Assembly (NCBI GenBank): GCA_002897115.2
Contig: BCIH01000006.1
Span: forward strand, 133,250 to 197,249
Length of the DNA stretch: 64,000 nt
Direction of reading: 5' to 3'
Source of the DNA: Prototheca cutis
Taxonomy: Eukaryota > Chlorophyta > Trebouxiophyceae > Chlorellales > Chlorellaceae
This document shows positions 2,390 through 15,394 of the stretch, one piece after another. Below the pieces are notes generated by a model, which did no database searches, had not been told where the DNA came from, and saw nothing but the letters and a program-made list of their open reading frames with translations. The position numbers and the translations under genes were made by a program. Numbering within the stretch: position 1 is the stretch's first letter; every line of letters starts with the position of its first letter.

Positions 2390-4552
2390 TCAGGCCAAAG
2401 TCTGGCCAAAATGCAGCGTGTCGCATGCCAGGGAGTCAATATTGACCAGGACCATGGCCGGACAGACGTGGAAGGCCGGCACCATGACTAGTCTCACGAT
2501 CTGACCGTCCGGCCCACGAACCAGGCGCGTGCCAAACCCGGCTTGTCCTCCCACAAACAGCACATTCGGCGCGCTTTCCAGCAGGAACGGGTCGCGGTCG
2601 TGGAAGGGGTAGGCCGCCAGGGTGTCGGGTGCCGTGGGCGCCGTATGCCGCCATCTCAGCATCGCCTCCAGGACATCCAGCGGATCGGTGGTCTCCGAGT
2701 ACCGCAGTACGTCTGCCACGCCCTGACCCGAACAGCCCAGGAATCGCACACCTGCGATTTCAAACTCGTGTGGATTCGTTGCCCGCACGAGGGCAGGCGG
2801 TGGGGTCGATTTGGGTTCAGCGCTGCTTGCGCTCCCGCTGGCCCCCACTGTGGCGGCTAAAAGTGCCGGGTGGAGGGGCTGCTGGGGGAGCGCGGTGTTG
2901 GCCGGATCGCCTGGACCCGGCATGACGTCCAGCGGCACCGCGGAACACAGCGTACACAGCGTGGCATCGGCATCGCGCAGCGCGCCCAGCGCCGCACTCC
3001 GCGCCCACGCGTCGACCGCCGACTTGCCCGTCGTCGTTGGTGCGGTGCCGTCGGAACCAGCCCCGGCCAGCAGACCGCCTGCCACGACGACGCGAACGAC
3101 GCGGGCAGCCAGCGCCTGCTCGCCCCGTCCGCCCAACGCCCCCGCCAGCCAGTCGACTGCAAGCTGCAGTGCAAGCGCAGCGTCGGGGCCGGGAGTGGGC
3201 TCACCACCAACACCAGCACCGCTGTTGGCGTCCGCATTTTCAGCACCAGCGGGCACTGTCATCCCCACTGTGGCGGCGGCACCCAGGCCGGAGAGGAGGG
3301 CCACATAGCGATCCGAGGCGCGGGCAGCACCCGGGCCTGAAGCACCAGTGCCGGCTAGGGCGCGTTCGTGCACTGCACCGTTGCCGACATCCCCCTGAGG
3401 CGGCACGCCTGCAAAGCAGACATCGATGACGTCGAATTCGCCGCTGGCCAGAAGCCGGCCACGGACAGCTGTCACGACCCCGGTGACCAACGATCCCACG
3501 GGTGCACCGGCGCCACCCAGTGTGATTCGGGCGCTCTCATCCTCCAAGATCAAACGGTCGTCGCCCGATGTAAACCGTGTCNGGCCTGCGTGGTTGCGGA
3601 ATGGTCGGGCGCGAGACGACTGGGCTTTGTTCTGTGGGTATGTGGCGCGTGGTTGGTCTCACACTGGGTGGCACCTGGGGGGGCCCCCGTTCCTCGGCTC
3701 ACAAGACTCCGACTGAAAGCCAACTATTCAGCCACCACCACATTCCAGAAACCCAAGCGTTTCACGTACCGAGCTGGCGCGCGGTGGCCTTGTCCTTTAC
3801 GTATTCGTCAAGGATACTGGGCTTGAGCTTCATGTCCTTGTAGATCGTGCCGGTGATGAAGCACTCCACGCCCTCCGCAGCATCCAACACGTGAGCCTCT
3901 GGTTGTTGAGAGACGGGTGCACGTTTTGATTGGACCAGTGTATTCGCGTGTGCATGTGTGTGCAGTGGAAGGAGGGCCTTTTCAGCGTTTTCAAATCCTC
4001 CAACTTTATCTCGTTGCATGACCACTCCACGAGCAGTGGGACAGGGNCCCTGATGGCACAACTGTGCCGCTGTCTGTTCCTAATGCCATCCAGGCTAATC
4101 AACCCCTATAGAAACAATGCTGTGCAGCAGCGCTTCACCTCCATTGGTTCCCAAAGAATGCAGACAAACGCAAAGTACCACAAACCACGCCCCACTCAGG
4201 CACCTGGCAGGCCAGGCCACCTCTGCTTTGCTGCAGCAACCACGGCTGGGCGCAGCCTGAGCAGTCTGTAAAAGTAGAATTGGGCATACTGGCGCTCGTA
4301 GTTCTTGTCCTTCAGGACGAAGCGTGCGTCCAAATTGGTGTACGGCGCGGTAGCCCTGAGAATGGGTTGGGCTTGGGTGGGGGGTCCCAGCAGATCATCG
4401 TATGCTTCCGATCTGCGGCAGAGCGGGGAAGAATCATGTACGCCTGAGAGTTAGGTGTTGACGCATCCAGTTCAGCATCGACATCGCGGCGTGATCGCCC
4501 TCCCACTCACGCACCCAGCTCTGGGACCCTCCGCCTCCATCGCCGTGCTCAT
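2390..4552 (-). CDS. POLD2: DNA polymerase delta small subunit
   Basis: This is the B-subunit of replicative DNA polymerase delta, which holds the catalytic subunit to the rest of the complex. Minus-strand exons are 4552-4515, 4412-4204, 3898-3770 and 3585-2390. All phases agree and give 523 residues, longer than the usual 430-470. Recognisable stretches in order are YERQYAQFYFYRL (N-terminal OB region), GTIYKDMKLKPSILDEY, TRFTSGDDRLILEDES and, near the C-terminus, PNVLFVGGQAGFGTRLVRG, the inactive phosphoesterase-like domain of this family. The extra length is an alanine/glycine-rich insert in the last exon. An N at 3582 lies in the first codons of exon 4. POLD2 is divergent from the TPR gene, with a shared 344 bp upstream region. 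Confidence 0.93.
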
Positions 4553-5892: not shown

Positions 5893-6856
5893 ATGTCCGA
5901 AGCAGACGTCCGGCTGCAGTCTCGTCTGGACGCCGTGTTCGGCAGCCTGGGCGCTTCGCAGCGCGATCCCAGCCAGCCCGCCCCATGGAGACCTCGAGCG
6001 GACACGCTCTTCCGCAGGGGGGTCCGAACAGATGAGAGCGATGAGGAAGCCGATGCCCGAGAGATAGAGCGACGCCAGGGCCTGGAAGGTGAGGGTTGTG
6101 ATAGAGGATGGATGGACCTGCCTGGCAGCTGCTGGGCGATGGCTCGTGACGCCGTGGAGCACCCACGCAACCCCATCTGGGTACACCATTACCGTGATTT
6201 CGAGGCCATGTCTGCAGGTCTAGAGGAGCTGGTCGAGGAGGATGCAGAGTGCGCTCCATCACACGCCTTTTGCCGCGCAGTGGTGAGGCGGTTGCGTGCC
6301 TGTTGGTTGCCGGCGGTTCTGTGTGTCTGGAGGGATGCCAAGGTGGATATGTCGACCGCTGCATGCCATGCTTTGCAGCCGACCATTTGGCCACTTGATT
6401 TTGTCTGTTTTCTCTGGTTTTGCATGGGGGGAGGGGAGTATTTCTAGGAACAGGCCCCGAGCCCTTCAAGAACACGTGCTCTCTGACTCACAGGACGCCG
6501 AGGAAGAGTTCAGCATTGTCGATGCGCTGGCAGATCCATCTGGTAGGGATGATGCCAAGCCCAGTGTTTCCACGATCGTAATGGACGAAGAGGATGCGGA
6601 TGGTGCTATAGTTCCTCGACAGGCGCCGGTGCGGGGTTTGTCCACCCCAGCAGTGGGTGGCCCCCGTCCTCCCAAGCAGGACTCCAGGCCAGCTGCCAAG
6701 GTAGCACGCCGGGCACCTGCTCCTTCAAAGGTCCCAGACTACCTCCTGCATCCGGAGCGATACACACGTTATACATTTGAGGAACCCATTATCGTTGGCG
6801 GGGGCATCGGCCAGCTTCAAGGAGCCGCGCAGGCACCAGAGGTGAGGAACTCAGGA

Positions 6857-6907
<51 letters not shown>

Positions 6908-7366
6908 CTCCGCTGGCATGTGTTCTGGAGGCCCCAACTGCAGAGCGTCATTGCGCTTGCCGCCCTACAGCAATCCTGCACATCACCGCAGGCCGCTGAG
7001 CTCCCGATGGCAGCACTGCCCCGAGTGGTGGAGGAGGGTCCAATGGATGTGGATCTGGCCAGTCCCGCAGAGGTTCCCTCGTCGACGGAACAGCCTTCCG
7101 GTGCATGTGCACGAGACGAAACGCTAGGAGAAGGCCCCGCGGCTGCCCTCCCTAGGGTCGAGTTTCGGTCCACACGAGCGCCGACAGCCCATGCCCTGGG
7201 ANCCCCTGTACCGCGACGCAGCCGGCCGGCTGTGCGGCTGAATCACGACTGTGAGGACGACGACCAAGCCGGCGGAAATGAAGAAGATGGACATCCTGCG
7301 GGGGGGGCGCGACAAGGCACTGCTGCTGGAAGCACGAGACGAGCANATCGCCGAACCCTAGGCTGA
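5893..7366 (+). CDS. TSSC4: TSSC4-like U5 snRNP assembly factor
   Basis: In human cells TSSC4 helps assemble the U5 and U4/U6.U5 snRNPs by binding PRPF8 and SNRNP200. Exons here are 5893-6088, 6218-6282, 6494-6841 and 6944-7366, about 343 residues. The family signature is VPDYLLHPERYTRYTFEEP near residue 170, together with the N-terminal RLDAVFGSL. The rest is acidic or low complexity, as is usual for this largely disordered protein. Intron 3 contains an extreme poly-G run (6860-6907). The last acceptor is uncertain: 6944, 6971 and 6992 are all in frame. The two-residue agreement between plant and human versions is weak outside the signature, so the assignment depends mainly on that motif. 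Confidence 0.72.
6860..6907 (+). repeat. 48-base poly-G run inside TSSC4 intron 3
   Basis: An uninterrupted run of 48 G directly follows the donor region of the intron, which begins at 6842. The run length may be an assembly estimate. Confidence 0.95.
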
Positions 7367-7774: not shown

Positions 7775-10700
7775 TCACGGCGCGGAGGAGCGCATGGAGG
7801 CCGGGACAATGCCTGGGGGCAAATCAAACTCTGCAAAGACGCGCTCCGCGGCCACACCCCCACCGTGCGCGAGGGGCGAGACGGCAGCAGCGAGGAAACT
7901 GTCCTGCAGTCCCTCACCGTCTTTGGCCAGGGCAGCCGGCTGCTCACCGGCGTCAGCTGCCGTGGAGTCGATCTCATCCACAATCTCGAGCCGAGGCGCT
8001 GGCGCGGCGGTCTCCTGCGCCGGTGGGGACTCCCCCGGGTCCGTGGGCGCTGCGCCCATGGCCCTTTGCGTGACGTCCTGTTCCTGGTCCGCCTGTTGTG
8101 GCGGCAGCACGCCGGCGGCGGCTTCGTTCGCCAGCAGTGCAGCGGCGCTACTGCGACCCCCGCCCGGAAACCCCGAGCGCAGCCCAATACCACCCCCCTC
8201 CCTCCATGATGCCAGCGCTGTGGCTCTGTTGGGTGATCGTGGGGGCAGGAGGCTCTTGGTCGAGGAGGTCGCCGAGGGAGCCTGCAACGGCTGCACCGAC
8301 AGCGTCTTGCCTGTGTCCAGTGCGACGGATGGCAGCGGCCCGACGTCCGCGCCCTTGTCCTCCGCCGCCGCTGCAGCCGCCGCAGCAGCCCAGGCCGCGG
8401 CGCAACTAGGGATGTGGTCTCCAGGTCCCAGGGCCGGCGGGCCCTCTGGCAAACCCACCCCACTGCCACCAGCGCCCGCCGCTGGGGAAGGCAGCACAGT
8501 GCCCGCACCCCGGGCGCCTGCGGTCGAAAACGACGCCGACGAGCGCCGCGACGACACGACGTCAAACCCGCGCTCGTCGTCGATGCTGGCCAGGACCGAG
8601 GGTGTGGCCTCCAGCCAGGCCCTCGGATCCGGCGGCGACACGTCCGGCGGCAGCCGGCCTGGCAGCGATGTCCATGACCCCGGCGGCCCACCGGTCGTAG
8701 ACAGCAGCCCCATTCCCACACCGCCGCCCCCGCCTGCACGGAGGCTGGACCGGGAAGCTCGGCACGTGGTGGGCAGGGAGGTCGGCGACCCCGGGTCGGA
8801 GGGCGGCACGTCCAGCGACAGCGACATCTGGCTGACGGGGCGGGAGGAGAAGTAGGACGTGTCCGTGTCGCCGTCGGTCACGGGGACAAACGCCGCTTTC
8901 CTCCGTGCCAGCGAACCCCAGTCCATGCCGGAAAACCAGGGGTGCAGCTTGACTTCACCCGCGCCGCGCCGGCCCAGCCGCCGGGCGGGGTCCAGAGTTA
9001 AAAGACGCTCCACCAGGTGCCGGAACTCTGCACTCGGATGGACCGCTTCAGCAGGGGGCGGCGACAGGTGATTTCCGTCGTCGTCACCAGGGTCACCACT
9101 GCGGGGCTGTGGTGACGGGGCACCGTGACCAACCCCCCCTGGTGGTCCTGGGGAGCGCTCCGCTTCCCCGGGCCAGTGCACGCGTCCGTCCAAAACGTTG
9201 CGGAAGATGTCTTCGGCGCTGTCGGCAGCAAAGGGCGGCGTGCCCATGACCATCTCGTACAGGACCACGCCCAGCGACCACCAGTCCACCTCCAGGCCGT
9301 GTCCCGTGCCGAGAAGGAGCTCAGGCGCCAGGTAGTCGGGTGTGCCCACTGCCCGGGCCGTCTCCTCGCCGCCCGCGACGACGTGCGACTGACCGGCTTG
9401 GTGTAGGTGATGCTGGGCCGGTGGTGGCAGCAGCGACGGCTCGCGACTGGATGCACTGGCGCCTCCGAAAGCAACGGGACCTGGAGCAAAGCCCGGCACA
9501 GATTGCGCGTGATGGTGATGGTGTCCAGCCGCCGCGGCACCAGCACCGCCAAACTCGGAAATGCTGGGCTCCGGCAGGACAAGCCCCCGAACGCTGGCAA
9601 AGGACGCTGGGCGAGACAGCAGGCCGGCACGGGGACTGCCCGCACTTGAAGTCGCCGCCGAACCGCAAAAACTGCTGCCACCGCCATAGCCATCGGTCGA
9701 GACCNCGGCATCACCCTCACCGCCGTCCCCACCGGTGCCGCCAGTCCCGCCCCCGGCGCTGCCGCCAGGGTCGGTGCGGTCGATGACGCCGAAACAGGAA
9801 AGCCCNAAATCNGCGAGTTTCAGGTGTCCATCCGCAGCAATGAGGAGGTTGTCGGGCTTGAGGTCACGGTGGATGATGCCCTGGGCGTGGCAGTACTCGA
9901 GCGCCAGCACCGTCTCGGCCGCGTACTGCCGCGCAACGTCCTCGTCCAGCGAGCCCATCGCGCGCAGCAGGGAGTACAGGTCCCCACCGGGAGCGAACTC
10001 CATCACAAGGTACAGGTTGGTCGGAGACGTGAACGAGCTCAGGAATCGCACGACAAAGGGGTTGCGTGCCGCGGCTAGAATGTTGCGCTCATTCCGAGCG
10101 CCCTGCACCATGTTCTTCCGCACCAGATCCGCCTTGCGCATCACCTTGATCGCGACCAGCTCGCCCGGCAGTGGCGGCTGGTGTTGGCGTTGCTGTGGGG
10201 GAGAGGCAGGGCTAGGATCGCTGCTTTCCGTCACCGTGGTCACGGGAGCTAGATTTGGTCCAACTCCTACTGCGTCAGCACCAGGGCCATCTGCACCCCC
10301 ACTACCATGGCGCCTAGCCAAATAAACGCGGCCAAAGGCTCCGCGGCTGATGGGCTTGATCACTTCAAACTCGTCCAGACTGGTGGGCGCAGAGCCATGA
10401 TGGGCACCGAAGCTCGCCGCACCGCCGGCCCAGCCGGGCGAGAGGGCGCCGCCACCGCCTGTCATCGCTGCCACTCCCGGCGCGGCACACGCGCACACCC
10501 CGATGTGTTCGCAGCTGGAACTCCGGCCGCGGCCATGGCGCGACCCGGTGCCGCCGCCGCCGCCGCCTGCCAGACACCGCAGGTCGGCCCACCCCATCGT
10601 GCCGCCAGCGTAGCTCAGCCGCAGCTCCTCCGCCTTTGCCTCTGCGAGACTTAATACTCGTGCCGCTGCGGCGGCCAGGTCCCCCGGCAACTGCTGCTGC

Positions 10701-13634
10701 TGGTGTTGCTGTTGGGGTGCAGTGACAGCCCGAGCAGGCGCCGTCACCGGCGGGNGCACAGCACCGTCTGCCGCCAGTGCATCGCTGCCAGCATCGTCCT
10801 CGGCAGAACAGACCCCGACTCCTGTGGTGTCGGATGCGGTCAGAAGCTGCTGGAGGGCCAGGACCAGATCGGCCGCACGCAGGGCGGGCTGCGGCGTGCC
10901 ATCGGGCTGCAGCGACGCCGCAGCCCGCGCGACGGCCGCCACCTCCTCCACCGCATCGCTCAGTGCCCAGGGCGCGCCGGCTCCGCTCGAGGCCTCGGAG
11001 ACGGTCGACGAGGCGCGCTGGGCCGACAGCGTCGACGCGACGCGCTGAGGCGTCGACGCGCCTGACACTCTCGGCGGCGGTGGCTGCGCCAGAGGTGCGG
11101 CACCAAGCAGGCTGCCGGTGCCGAGGCACGGTGAAGACGCTGCTGAGGCCGCCGGCAGCGCCACCGCTGAGACGCCGTGTGCCCCGCTAGCTAAACTGGC
11201 AGAAGAAGTGGTACTCGGCAGGGGAGCGGGAGCGCTGAGTGTCAGCGCCAGCGTCGACCCCTGCTGCTGTTGTGAGGGTCCGGCGGCAAACGGAGCTCCA
11301 GATGCCATGGAGGAGGCAGCAGCAGACTCGTCATAAGCACCAGAGCCTTGCGGCACAGCAGCAGGAGCAGTGGTATGAGCGTTTCCTCCAGCCGCACGCC
11401 CCACAACATGCCCCGCTTCGCCCTGCAGGTCGAGGGCCTCGCCCAGCACATCCTCCACGTACGCAGCCAGCCGTGTCAGGGCAGCGTCCACGCCGCCCGG
11501 TCCTGCCACACCTCCGGCTTCGGCCGCGTCCAGCGCCGCGCACAGCGCCACGTGTGACAGCAGCACCGCCGCGGGCACATCCGTGCCACAGCGCGCACAT
11601 CGTGCCAGCGCTGGTTGCGTGGGGGTGGTGCCAGCAGGGCCGGCGGCGGGAGCCGAGGTACTGGCTTGCTCGTCAACGGCACGCCTCGTGGTCGCGGGCG
11701 TGCGGCCCCGTGCCGAAGGCGGCGTATCCTTCTCCTCGTCGCTCGATGCACCCGACCGTGCGGCATGACCCCGACCACCACCGCCACTCCCACCATCTTG
11801 CGGTCGGTTGCGGGGCGTGGCAATCCCCGCCAACCCTTCGGCCACCAGACGCAATGCACCGGCCAGGCTGTCGGCCACGCCGCGGGTCAGGGGCGTCGCG
11901 ATGGCACGATCCACCTCGCGCCACGTGCCCCGCACCGCCGCCACAAACGGAGTGGTCACGGCGGCCAGAGGACCCTTGCTTACGCGCCCGGCGCGAGGGG
12001 AGCCGCTGTCTTCGTCAGCAACGGCAGTGTCGTCGGAACCGTCGGCCAAAGGAGAAGGCGACCCACCACTACCAGCAAGCCCGCGTGCCGGCGCCGACTG
12101 ACGGCCGAGCGGCGTCGAGGGCGCAGTATGCGAGCCCATAGCTGCTGCCACGGCACTTGCGCGCCGGGCNAGCGGCGATGACGGCGCTCGCCGCGGTTGA
12201 GCGGCAGTCGCAATTGCCGCGGCGGCTCCCCCCGGTGCCTCGCCACGGGGCCCCGACAACGCCGTCGTCGTGGTGGTACCCTGGTGCAGCAGGTACTGCA
12301 GGCCGTGCGACGGCGTGCTGAGCCGCCGCGGCGTGGTACCAGCGCTCACACTGCCTGATGCGCCGCGCCGACCAGAGGCAGCAGCGGCGGCGGCGGACGA
12401 TGTCTGAGGCTGGCCTCGCAAGTTTACAGTTCCAGCGGCTGCGCCGATGCGCATGCCACCGGCAGCCTGGTCCATCTCTGCTTCCAGGGCCGTCACGACG
12501 CTGCGTCCCAGAGGGCTCAGCGCCAACGGCCGCAGCGCCGACCCGGGCGTCCGAGGTCCGCTTGCCGCAGCGAGCTCGTCGATACTGCCGCTGCGCCGGT
12601 CAGAGCCCCCGCCGTCGTCGGAACGAGGTGACCGTGGGGCATGGGCAGTGGCAGTGCCACCGCCGCCACTGGGGGACGGCTGCTGGCCCGCACCGGCCCC
12701 AGTAGAAGCAACAGCGCCGCTCCGCAACCCGCCGAGATCAAGCGACCGGTGCCGCACGTGGCCGTGATCGTACGGCGCCGCAGCGCCAGTGCCGCGAATG
12801 ACCGTCGCTCCGCGGATTGGGGGTGGCGATGACGATGAAGAAGAAGGCCCCGCCCGGCCCGGACCCGGTGCAGCGGGGCTGGCGCTGCCGCTGCGCCCGT
12901 CGACGCCGGCGTCGCCCGGCGGGGGCGTGCCGGGCGCGTGGCCCCGGCGGTGCGGGGACGGTGACGGGGACAGCGAACCCTCGCCGCCGCCAAACGATCC
13001 CCGGCTGCGGTGCAGCGCCAGGACCGAGGGCAGTGCCCGCGTGCGCCGGCGCGGCTGCAGCGTCCGCGGCGGCGCCAGGCCCGTGNCCCGACCGCGCCAC
13101 GCAGTGCCGGGCCCGCCGCTGCTCCCGCCGCGGGCGTCCTCACTCAGCACGAGTCGGCTGCATCGCGTCAGCACAAACAGCAGCCGCGTCGCCAGGGCAC
13201 GCTGCCGCGGGTCGCGGGCTTCGCCCCGCAGAGCCTGCATGTTTGTTTTTGTATGGGGTTAGGAGGGTCAGGAGCTGGTCATGGGTGAGAAAGAGAGACC
13301 TCAGTCAGNACACACCAACGAGCCCCTTCTTCCTAGGAGAAGAACGTGGCCCACTGCCTGCCATCCCCCCCCATCCCCAACCCCGCCAACCACCAGGTTC
13401 CCCAAACTCCCCAGCAACACCCACCCCGATCTCATCGACGGTGCCCCGGATGGATTCACGAAAGCCCTCCGCGTCTTCGGACAGGCTCCGCTCCGCGAGC
13501 GCAATCAGCGCCGGCAGCAGGTCGAGCTCACTGCCGGCAGAGCGCCCGGGGCCTGCACCGCCTGCGGCCGTGCCGAGCCCGTCTTGGCTCGCGGCTCGTG
13601 CTTCTTCCAGCCACGCCACAAGATCCCGTCGGAC
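7775..13634 (-). CDS. IRE/MAST/Greatwall-type AGC protein kinase, 5' end open
   Basis: A serine/threonine kinase of the AGC group nearest to plant IRE kinases and to yeast Rim15 and animal Greatwall/MAST. Supported exons are 13634-13425 and 13234-7775, at least 1,889 residues. The N-terminal part carries the IRE-family helical region ending in [16 protein letters not shown] possible zinc-binding [20 protein letters not shown] follows mid-protein. Near the C-terminal third lies the kinase domain: [30 protein letters not shown], a DFG motif masked by Ns at 9806 and 9812, [14 protein letters not shown], and the AGC tail DTSYFSSR. About 155 residues separate DFG from APE, an enlarged activation-loop insert. 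ATG 13240 lies just before the acceptor of exon 13234 and is not the true start. Upstream of 13634 the frame stays open to ATG 13826, but the real first exon is unresolved. Confidence 0.88.
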
Positions 13635-15000
13635 CTGTGATGGGGAGGGTTCAGCGCAACAAGGGGTCATCTTGGGCCGCGTGGCAGATATATCTGACAT
13701 CATGCAAGAAAGGGGGAAAGGGGCGGTGGGACCTACACCTGAACCCCCCCTCCCCCCCATGCAAGATTGCCCCGTCCCATGTCTTAAGGACCATCTCGCC
13801 TCGCCTCGCGAATGCGCCACCCGCATACTATCCACACCTGAGATCGAGCCGCAAGGAACGTGCGGTTGAGGCGCCGCCTGCTGATTGTGAAAGGTGACGG
13901 CGCACCAGGGCTCGACTCCTTCAGGGTTGGTTTGGGCAGGGTTGAGACATGTGCCGGTGGCGCAGTTGATACACGTGCTGGGCAGAACAGTTTAAACCTT
14001 TGCTAGGACCGGCGGGCTCTCGCGAGATGCTGCCCAACACATGCATGGCTGCTGGCCCAGCTCAAAACCCTGCAGCGGTCCAGCAGCAGATTCATCCCTG
14101 CCACGCAACGGCATGCCGAGGAGCCACAGGAGCACCCCAGTCCGGACGGGGCTATTCCTTCCCTTCGGGCTACTACCCCCCACCGCGCCTCCGGCTTCCA
14201 AACGAAGGTCCAACAGCCACCCTAGGCGCTCTATCGTCACGTACCGGCTGGAGGTTGGTACCACTGGGTGTCGCGTGCTCATCCGTCCGGAGGAAGAGGG
14301 AGGGCGCCCGGGAGGGCCGGATCTCAGTGGCAAAGCCCAAGTGCCTGGGCAAGGCAGGTGTGCAATTCTCCGGGCAACCCAGGGCGCCGAAGGGGGTATA
14401 CGGGGTCCCAGCCTGCGCATGTCAGGACACATGAACAGTAAGCACGATATCGGGAACGGTCCAAAGGTGTGAGGCTAGGCTGCCCGTCGACCCTGCACAC
14501 CCAGCTGCACTCGCACATCCTTGCTCGAACTAGGCTCCGCCTTGGCTGCCTTCTCCGACCCAACGCCTTCAAAGGACACGCGGCTGTGGCTCACGGTTGG
14601 CGTGAGCTCACTCATCCTACACGCATCCGCGCTGGGGAGCACGGGCTCATAGACAGAGAGCCAAGGATCCCCGCCTCATGGCGCCTGTCGACCATGGGCT
14701 CATGTGCAGGAGGGCATGATGGTGCATAGGTACACGATAAAAATGTAAACAAATTTTACAAGCGCATGACTGGGACGCCCAGCCTGGCGTTAGTGCAGAT
14801 GCGGTTCCAGATCGGATGCGAGGGAGTGTAGGTGATCTGGCACGCTCACGGCAGGTAGCTGCTGGGCCCGCCCAGATTCGGATCACCGTTAGGCCTTGAG
14901 CAAGTCAGTCTCCGTCTCAGAATCGTTTGATTGGAGATTGTCCGTTGATCGACATACTCGAGCGCTTTACATACAGGGCGTGCGTGAGGAGGAGCTGAGG
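13635..15000. promoter_or_regulatory. Region between kinase and endosulfine genes
   Basis: About 1.3 kb between two head-to-head genes. It must hold both promoters and probably one or more 5' exons of the kinase. Open frames of 140-146 codons exist on both strands at 13992-14472, but none shows a recognisable domain, and they shadow one another. Confidence 0.5.
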
Positions 15001-15394
15001 ATGAGTGGTTCCACGGGCGGGGCCCCGGAGGCGGTGCGCAGGGTTGGCACATCCGCGTGGGCGCCTACCTTGTCATTGTTCATGATGGTCTTGAAGAGCG
15101 TGCATGGCTTGTCTTAATATTCCATCTAAACCTCGTGTGTCGGCGCGCCTGGCGCAGGGGCGGGCCCTGTCGGATGAGGAGCAGCAGGAGGCGCTGCTGC
15201 GGGCAAAGTATGGTGGCCTGCTGCCCAAGAAGAAGCAGGGCCCCAAGGACCACAAATTTTTCGATTCCGCGGACTGGGCGCTTTCAAAGCAGGGCCAGGG
15301 GGGCCAGTCCAACAGCCATCAGGGCCTGGAGCCCAAGCTGGGCCCCACGGAGCTACCCGGCCGCCGCACGTCCCACCTGGGACCTCAGCAATGA
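15001..15394 (+). CDS. ENSA: Endosulfine (ENSA/ARPP19/Igo family)
   Basis: Endosulfines become PP2A-B55 inhibitors when Greatwall/Rim15 phosphorylates the serine of their FDSxD motif. Exons 15001-15033 and 15158-15394 give 89 residues. The family core is LSDEEQQEALLRAKYGGLLP followed by KKKQ and HKFFDSADWALSKQG, in which the target serine and the following acidic residue are present. The family is small, so 89 residues is a normal length. The start at 15001 and the donor GTGCGC at 15034 are inferred; the alternative ATG at 15104 would give a different N-terminus but the same core. It is divergent from the Greatwall-class kinase. Confidence 0.85.

Follow-up and report, generated by a model that had tools for sequence, protein, structure and literature searches.

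A MAST/IRE-class kinase gene and an endosulfine gene head to head in Prototheca cutis: a candidate Greatwall-type pair partly conserved as neighbours in green algae

Animal endosulfines carry the acceptor motif FDSGDY. Greatwall, KIN-4, MAST2 and MAST3 are described as phosphorylating serines of ENSA/ARPP proteins, which thereby become inhibitors of PP2A-B55 (PMC11961639, PMC12732324). KIN-4 phosphorylates ENSA-1 and can substitute for Greatwall (PMC11961639), and Ser67 of ENSA is phosphorylated by Mast2 (PMC12732324). Plants, according to the account in PMC12024977, have MAST/IRE kinases and no separate MASTL. Whether the MAST/IRE kinases of plants and algae act as Greatwall is stated to be open in a 2025 review (PMC11829769), which agrees with the caution in the first-pass annotation of the DNA considered here that a Greatwall role of IRE kinases is not established.

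In the window, by which we mean the whole 64,000-nucleotide stretch of the Prototheca cutis genome that was analysed, a kinase gene on the minus strand and an endosulfine gene on the plus strand lie head to head. The minus-strand open reading frame 13258..7775 encodes 1827 aa of an AGC kinase, in which a Pfam profile search finds both parts of the PF00069 domain (185 bits). The first-pass annotation had assigned this kinase to the IRE/MAST/Greatwall type and had named its divergent neighbour as an endosulfine with an intact FDSADW site. Both assignments hold, with Greatwall as the closest solved relative of the kinase (243 bits) and PF04667 matching the endosulfine at 50.7 bits (cut-off 29.8). 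The features of the two genes and of the region between them are as follows.

7775-13234, minus strand: large last kinase exon, with kinase domain, C2HC-like knuckle and C-terminal tail; open frame, acceptor AG, phase 0; backed by homologues P0003, P0006, P0012, P0020 and P0055
8849-10378, minus strand: kinase domain, from LDEFEVIKP; PF00069; motif positions 9871-9848, GTPDYLAPE at 9346-9320
11540-11599, minus strand: C2HC-like knuckle of the kinase; C..C-H-C pattern in 117/120 listed homologues
13148-13189, minus strand: N-terminal kinase motif TRLLFxLTRCSRL; pattern in 95/120 listed homologues
13425-13634, minus strand: kinase exon 4, conserved N-terminal region; GT-AG, phase 0; P0003 alignment
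13838-13918, minus strand: kinase exon 3; GT-AG, phase 0; P0003 alignment
14245-14412, minus strand: kinase exon 2 (GTPxTPF), the outermost with homology support; GT-AG, phase 0; P0003 and P0012 alignment
14512-14615, minus strand: predicted coding exon 1 of the kinase, beginning with an ATG at 14615; an open frame with candidate donors is its sole evidence
14616-15000, no strand: intergenic region of the divergent pair, 385 bp long provided that the predicted first exon is right; 57% G+C
14731-14760, no strand: AT-rich island with 20% G+C; the palindrome TGTAAACAAATTTTACA occupies 14744-14760
15001-15042, plus strand: endosulfine exon 1; the start MSGS is also found in P0123, P0124 and P0126
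15158-15394, plus strand: endosulfine exon 2 with stop; PF04667
15260-15277, plus strand: FDSADW, with the FDS acceptor motif present and the predicted phospho-acceptor Ser at 15266-15268
15362-15373, plus strand: C-terminal RRTS, a basophilic-kinase-like site

In the predicted gene model of the kinase, the introns are GT-AG at all splices from exon 14412 onward. The joined N-terminus is 46% identical to P0003 of Prototheca wickerhamii over 248 aa and 41% identical to P0012 of Micractinium over 199 aa. The first exon is predicted from the reading frame rather than from homology, and its end is placed provisionally, near candidate donors at 14517 or 14511. The endosulfine model (15001-15042 joined to 15158-15394) is likewise predicted, with a GT-AG intron in phase 0. 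Single N positions are scattered over the window, for example at 9811 and 10755, and some of them fall in coding exons; one assembly N falls in the Phe codon of the kinase DFG motif, leaving this residue as F or L. Beyond the kinase gene there is a DNA polymerase delta small subunit-like gene (2390-3658, minus strand; PF04042 and PF18018) and a TSSC4-like open reading frame (6287-7363, plus strand), which is tail to tail with the kinase and scores 21.4 bits, under the Pfam cut-off of 27.

The first-pass annotation gave the gap between the two genes as about 1.3 kb because it was measured from an inner kinase exon. With three more homology-supported 5' exons and the predicted first exon, the gap is reduced to about 0.39-0.59 kb: the distance from start to start is 386 bp (predicted kinase ATG 14615 to endosulfine ATG 15001), and 589 bp separate the homology-supported kinase exon 2 from the endosulfine ATG. 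The G+C content of the divergent region is lower than that of the window (62%), and its AT-rich 30-mer (14731-14760) ranks 16 of the 63,970 30-mers in the window. The TGTAAA-N3..7-TTTACA pattern of the palindrome occurs at 6 places genome-wide, and the reversed control at 0. Both the island and the palindrome were picked after the sequence had been seen and are leads only. The distance, the island and this post hoc palindrome together raise the idea that the two genes may share a promoter.

The solved structures closest to the window kinase are two Greatwall chains, followed by CBK1 at 187 bits, and a profile of 12 green algal IRE homologues scores 446 bits against Greatwall and 344 bits against the next solved structure. 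The kinase domains of MAST1-4, according to PMC12732324, lack solved structures, so Greatwall as the closest structure shows membership of the MAST/Greatwall class and not Greatwall as such. The 120 listed of 2,641 kinase homologues come from green algae and land plants or are unnamed, and many of the plant ones are called IREH1. The IRE N-terminal region and the C2HC-like knuckle are both found in the window kinase, and DTSYF follows the kinase domain at 8863-8849 and in 113/120 listed homologues. A Pfam search of the window kinase protein (P0001) gave no match over the knuckle and no PDZ domain, the latter in keeping with the plant branch of IRE/MAST; the N-terminus matches 0 models in the Pfam copy used, and PF26031 is the precomputed annotation on most listed homologues. 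On these sequence features, the window kinase is assigned to the IRE/MAST class of AGC kinases.

The T-loop of the window kinase has no PDK1-type S/T-x-x-G-T acceptor (it reads RAVGT) and GTPDYLAPE is conserved. Among the 120 listed homologues the T-loop reads RAV in 40 and SAV in 58; the green algal ones have RAVGT and most land-plant ones SAVGT, a split by lineage that is our own reading. An S-P site (SPR) precedes GTPDYLAPE in 6/12 aligned homologues and is absent from the Prototheca protein P0003 and from the window kinase (QSHVV); it is possible that a proline-directed input to the T-loop was lost in the colourless lineage. From DFG to APE the T-loop of the window kinase is 164 residues long, and T-loops of the homologues have 78-159 residues (41/59 measurable by pattern). 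Published lengths are 37 in MAST1-4 and 460 in MASTL (PMC12024977). The window kinase thus lacks the insertion that lengthens the T-loop of strict Greatwall/MASTL to some 460 residues or more, and the 164-residue T-loop rules out that it is a Greatwall in the strict sense.

The Prototheca cutis genome (19.9 Mb, 23 contigs) has 143 protein kinase matches at exon level, only part of which were classified, and the genome kinases examined include no second member of the MAST/Greatwall class. When the lobes of the window kinase were used as queries, the runner-up matches were far weaker. With the Parachlorella IRE kinase as query, the pieces of the window kinase score 215, 115 and 102 bits, against 106 bits for the runner-up, a kinase that is CAMK-like by eye. 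For three further AGC-like kinases encoded in the genome, the closest solved relatives are S6K/RSK, PKG and PDK1, respectively, and a phototropin-like AGC-like kinase, its class judged by eye, is also present. The first-pass annotation had named a kinase closer to Rim15/Greatwall as evidence against its proposal, and these searches returned none. Its suggestion that the window kinase is the Greatwall of the alga is refuted neither by this search nor by the conservation of the pair, but it fails on T-loop length when Greatwall is strictly defined. We regard the window kinase as the best candidate for the endosulfine kinase of this genome. There is also one PP2A-B55 candidate, at C5:906393-908112, with 42-69% identity in five pieces to a hand-written query consensus. 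Chlorophyll a/b-binding protein (PF00504) gave 0 matches in the genome, in a search whose controls held no alga, and this would fit a colourless alga.

The FDSADW motif is found in 120/121 listed endosulfines, and 89/121 have an [RK][RK]xS pattern within the last 45 residues. PKA acts on ARPP proteins (PMC5515580) and, by analogy, the C-terminal pattern suggests a second, basophilic input. A second endosulfine is located at C7:509266-509442 (PF04667 at 32.4 bits, HFDSADWALS) and is unlinked to the IRE/MAST kinase. This gene, too, faces a divergent kinase head to head, at a distance of about 1 kb, and that kinase looks MAPK-like by eye; in the locus (L002, C7:507766-510942) the endosulfine is at L002:1456-1725 on the minus strand and the kinase runs from about L002:2735 on the plus strand. 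A kinase beside an endosulfine therefore means little by itself.

The closest named relatives of both the kinase and the endosulfine are in Prototheca, Auxenochlorella and Chlorella-type algae. Conservation of the pair was read from locus tags and from equal size of contigs, not from DNA, and orientation is invisible in tags. Both proteins are listed for 11 assemblies, which are the ones compared; outside this count are Nannochloris, whose two proteins come from different strains, and species for which just one of the pair is listed. The arrangement by assembly is as follows.

Parachlorella kessleri, N2152v2_006130/006131: consecutive tags, equal-sized contig
Trebouxia C0010 (another order), ABBQ32_001154/001155: consecutive tags, equal-sized contig
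EukProt alga, scaffold20 g7617/g7618: consecutive tags
Haematococcus lacustris, QJQ45_017100/017098: tags 2-3 apart
Gonium pectorale, 4g630/4g627: tags 2-3 apart
Micractinium conductrix, Chlorella vulgaris and Myrmecia bisecta: equal-sized contig only; Myrmecia tags 5,362 apart
Apatococcus fuscideae (fragmented), Chlamydomonas UWO 241 and Pedinophyceae YPF-701: pair on different contigs

The tags are thus consecutive in 3/11 and 2-3 apart in 2/11, with an equal-sized contig only in 3/11 and different contigs in 3/11. The expectation of the first-pass annotation that the neighbours would recur in other algae is borne out in part: three of the 11 have consecutive tags and five a looser linkage, but in three the pair is separated. 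In Haematococcus, another endosulfine-like protein, QJQ45_013233, whose tag is far off, is on an equal-sized contig, so that either contig size or tag order cannot be fully trusted in this species. The endosulfine of Chlamydomonas reinhardtii is CHLRE_06g307200v5 (Cre06.g307200), and its numerical flanks, as given in papers, are Cre06.g307150 (beta-amylase) and Cre06.g307250 (SMC) and not an IRE/MAST kinase; linkage in this species is judged from these two flanking loci, the kinase tag being absent among the listed homologues. Neither the endosulfine nor its locus appears in the main text of a Chlamydomonas phosphoproteome paper. No relatives of the endosulfine or of the kinase were found in viral contigs, and the 80 listed of 527 kinase loci in genome contigs are bacterial kinases by title.

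The reading that we prefer, with a probability of roughly 0.6, is that the pair is a Greatwall-type kinase-substrate module whose genes have been retained as neighbours in trebouxiophyte algae. It starts from direct results, namely the class of both genes, the intact catalytic and acceptor motifs and the head-to-head layout, together with a B55 candidate in the genome, no other member of the kinase class among the kinases found, and neighbouring locus tags for the pair in other algae. From there we infer the phosphorylation, the inhibition of PP2A, the co-expression and the physiological setting. The IRE/MAST-class kinase would phosphorylate the FDSADW serine of the endosulfine, and the phosphorylated endosulfine would then inhibit PP2A-B55. 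This inhibition would shift the balance of phosphorylation that depends on CDK or TOR, either as cells enter mitosis or in a nutrient-controlled arrest, and the short divergent region may let the two genes be expressed together. Endosulfine is reported to be a substrate of MAST-class kinases besides Greatwall (PMC11961639, PMC12732324), which makes it likelier that the algal IRE-type kinase is a functional Greatwall, as by analogy it may be. Counting against the module are the different contigs in three assemblies, the non-kinase loci flanking the Chlamydomonas reinhardtii gene, the second endosulfine with another divergent kinase and an acceptor, FDSADW, that is not of the animal form.

It could be that the genes have been neighbours since one ancestor and were kept by slow turnover of gene order, or by a shared promoter that cannot be dispensed with, the relation of kinase to substrate being irrelevant. 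This is unlikely on balance, although it deserves serious weight. Conserved neighbour pairs are known between trebouxiophyte genera, with 252 adjacent pairs reported among 5,232 orthologues for Chlorella variabilis and Coccomyxa, and a weak but significant synteny is described for Trebouxiophyceae compared with Chlorophyceae (PMC3446292); the linkage of our pair is, moreover, loose or missing in some lineages. This published figure, rather than the tag method applied to other pairs, is the yardstick for retention, and it suggests that retention of a pair is uncommon and not unique. Only about 1 orthologue in 20 is in such a pair, however, and here a kinase class is joined to its one known substrate family. 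Adjacency in Chlorella-type algae and Trebouxia is therefore unusual, and it is not by itself proof of selection. Simple coincidence, with unrelated genes side by side in the Prototheca cutis genome only, was our first hypothesis and is now very improbable. Kinases are abundant in the genome and the second endosulfine has a divergent kinase neighbour as well, as coincidence would allow, but locus tags place the pair side by side in further genera, one of them of a different order, which contradicts it, and the hypothesis was dropped.

The kinase might also serve mainly other substrates, in the cytoskeleton or in growth, with the endosulfine phosphorylated by another kinase or controlled mainly at its C-terminal basic site. 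We consider this improbable. Plant IRE kinases have been connected with the elongation of root hairs, and in animal cells IREH1 has been connected with centrosomes (PMC12732324, PMC12024977), and the study of IRE kinases in root-hair growth and microtubules (PMC12732324) also counts against the module; the frequent C-terminal [RK][RK]xS site and the PKG-like kinase of the genome would suit such a division of labour. Against it, the FDSADW serine is nearly invariant among the listed endosulfines, and the window kinase is the one member of its class found among the genome kinases examined.

If the pair is a Greatwall-type module, it specifies which enzyme, substrate, site and phosphatase to test, in algae that seem to have a single kinase of this class, and the neighbouring genes are a reason to expect co-regulation. 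The plant Greatwall question becomes directly testable through the pair. A wider proposal, which we put forward tentatively and with some doubt, is that IRE-type kinases are the green-lineage Greatwalls and that the linkage in core chlorophytes predates the split of Trebouxiophyceae and Chlorophyceae, the linked genes making up a PP2A-B55 switch whose parts are physically coupled. Fungi, animals and the green lineage would then, if this is true, share the Greatwall switch, and IRE would be the form that it takes in plants. Among the papers examined in a literature search for this pair, or for a Greatwall in algae, none described the pair, which is no proof of absence. What is new is an arrangement of known parts that is real, partly conserved and closer than first described.

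The locus resembles the Greatwall/MASTL-ENSA/ARPP19-PP2A-B55 module of animals and the Rim15-Igo1/2-PP2A-Cdc55 module of yeast in having an AGC kinase nearest to Greatwall, an intact acceptor serine and a B55 candidate. It differs from them in its FDSADW acceptor and in the adjacency of the kinase and substrate genes in Prototheca cutis; the kinase and substrate genes of the Greatwall/Rim15 modules are not known to be adjacent in yeast and animals. The T-loop of 164 residues is also unlike that of MASTL (about 460; PMC12024977). With the plant IRE/IREH1 kinases, which are of the MAST class and give many listed homologues their name, the window kinase has the N-terminal motif and the C2HC-like knuckle in common, whereas green algal T-loops read RAVGT and most land-plant ones SAVGT. 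Finally, it is like KIN-4 of C. elegans and mammalian MAST2/MAST3, which are described as MAST-class kinases without a PDK1-type T-loop acceptor that act on ENSA/ARPP proteins and, in contrast with the window kinase, in which none was found, carry a PDZ domain (PMC11961639, PMC12732324).
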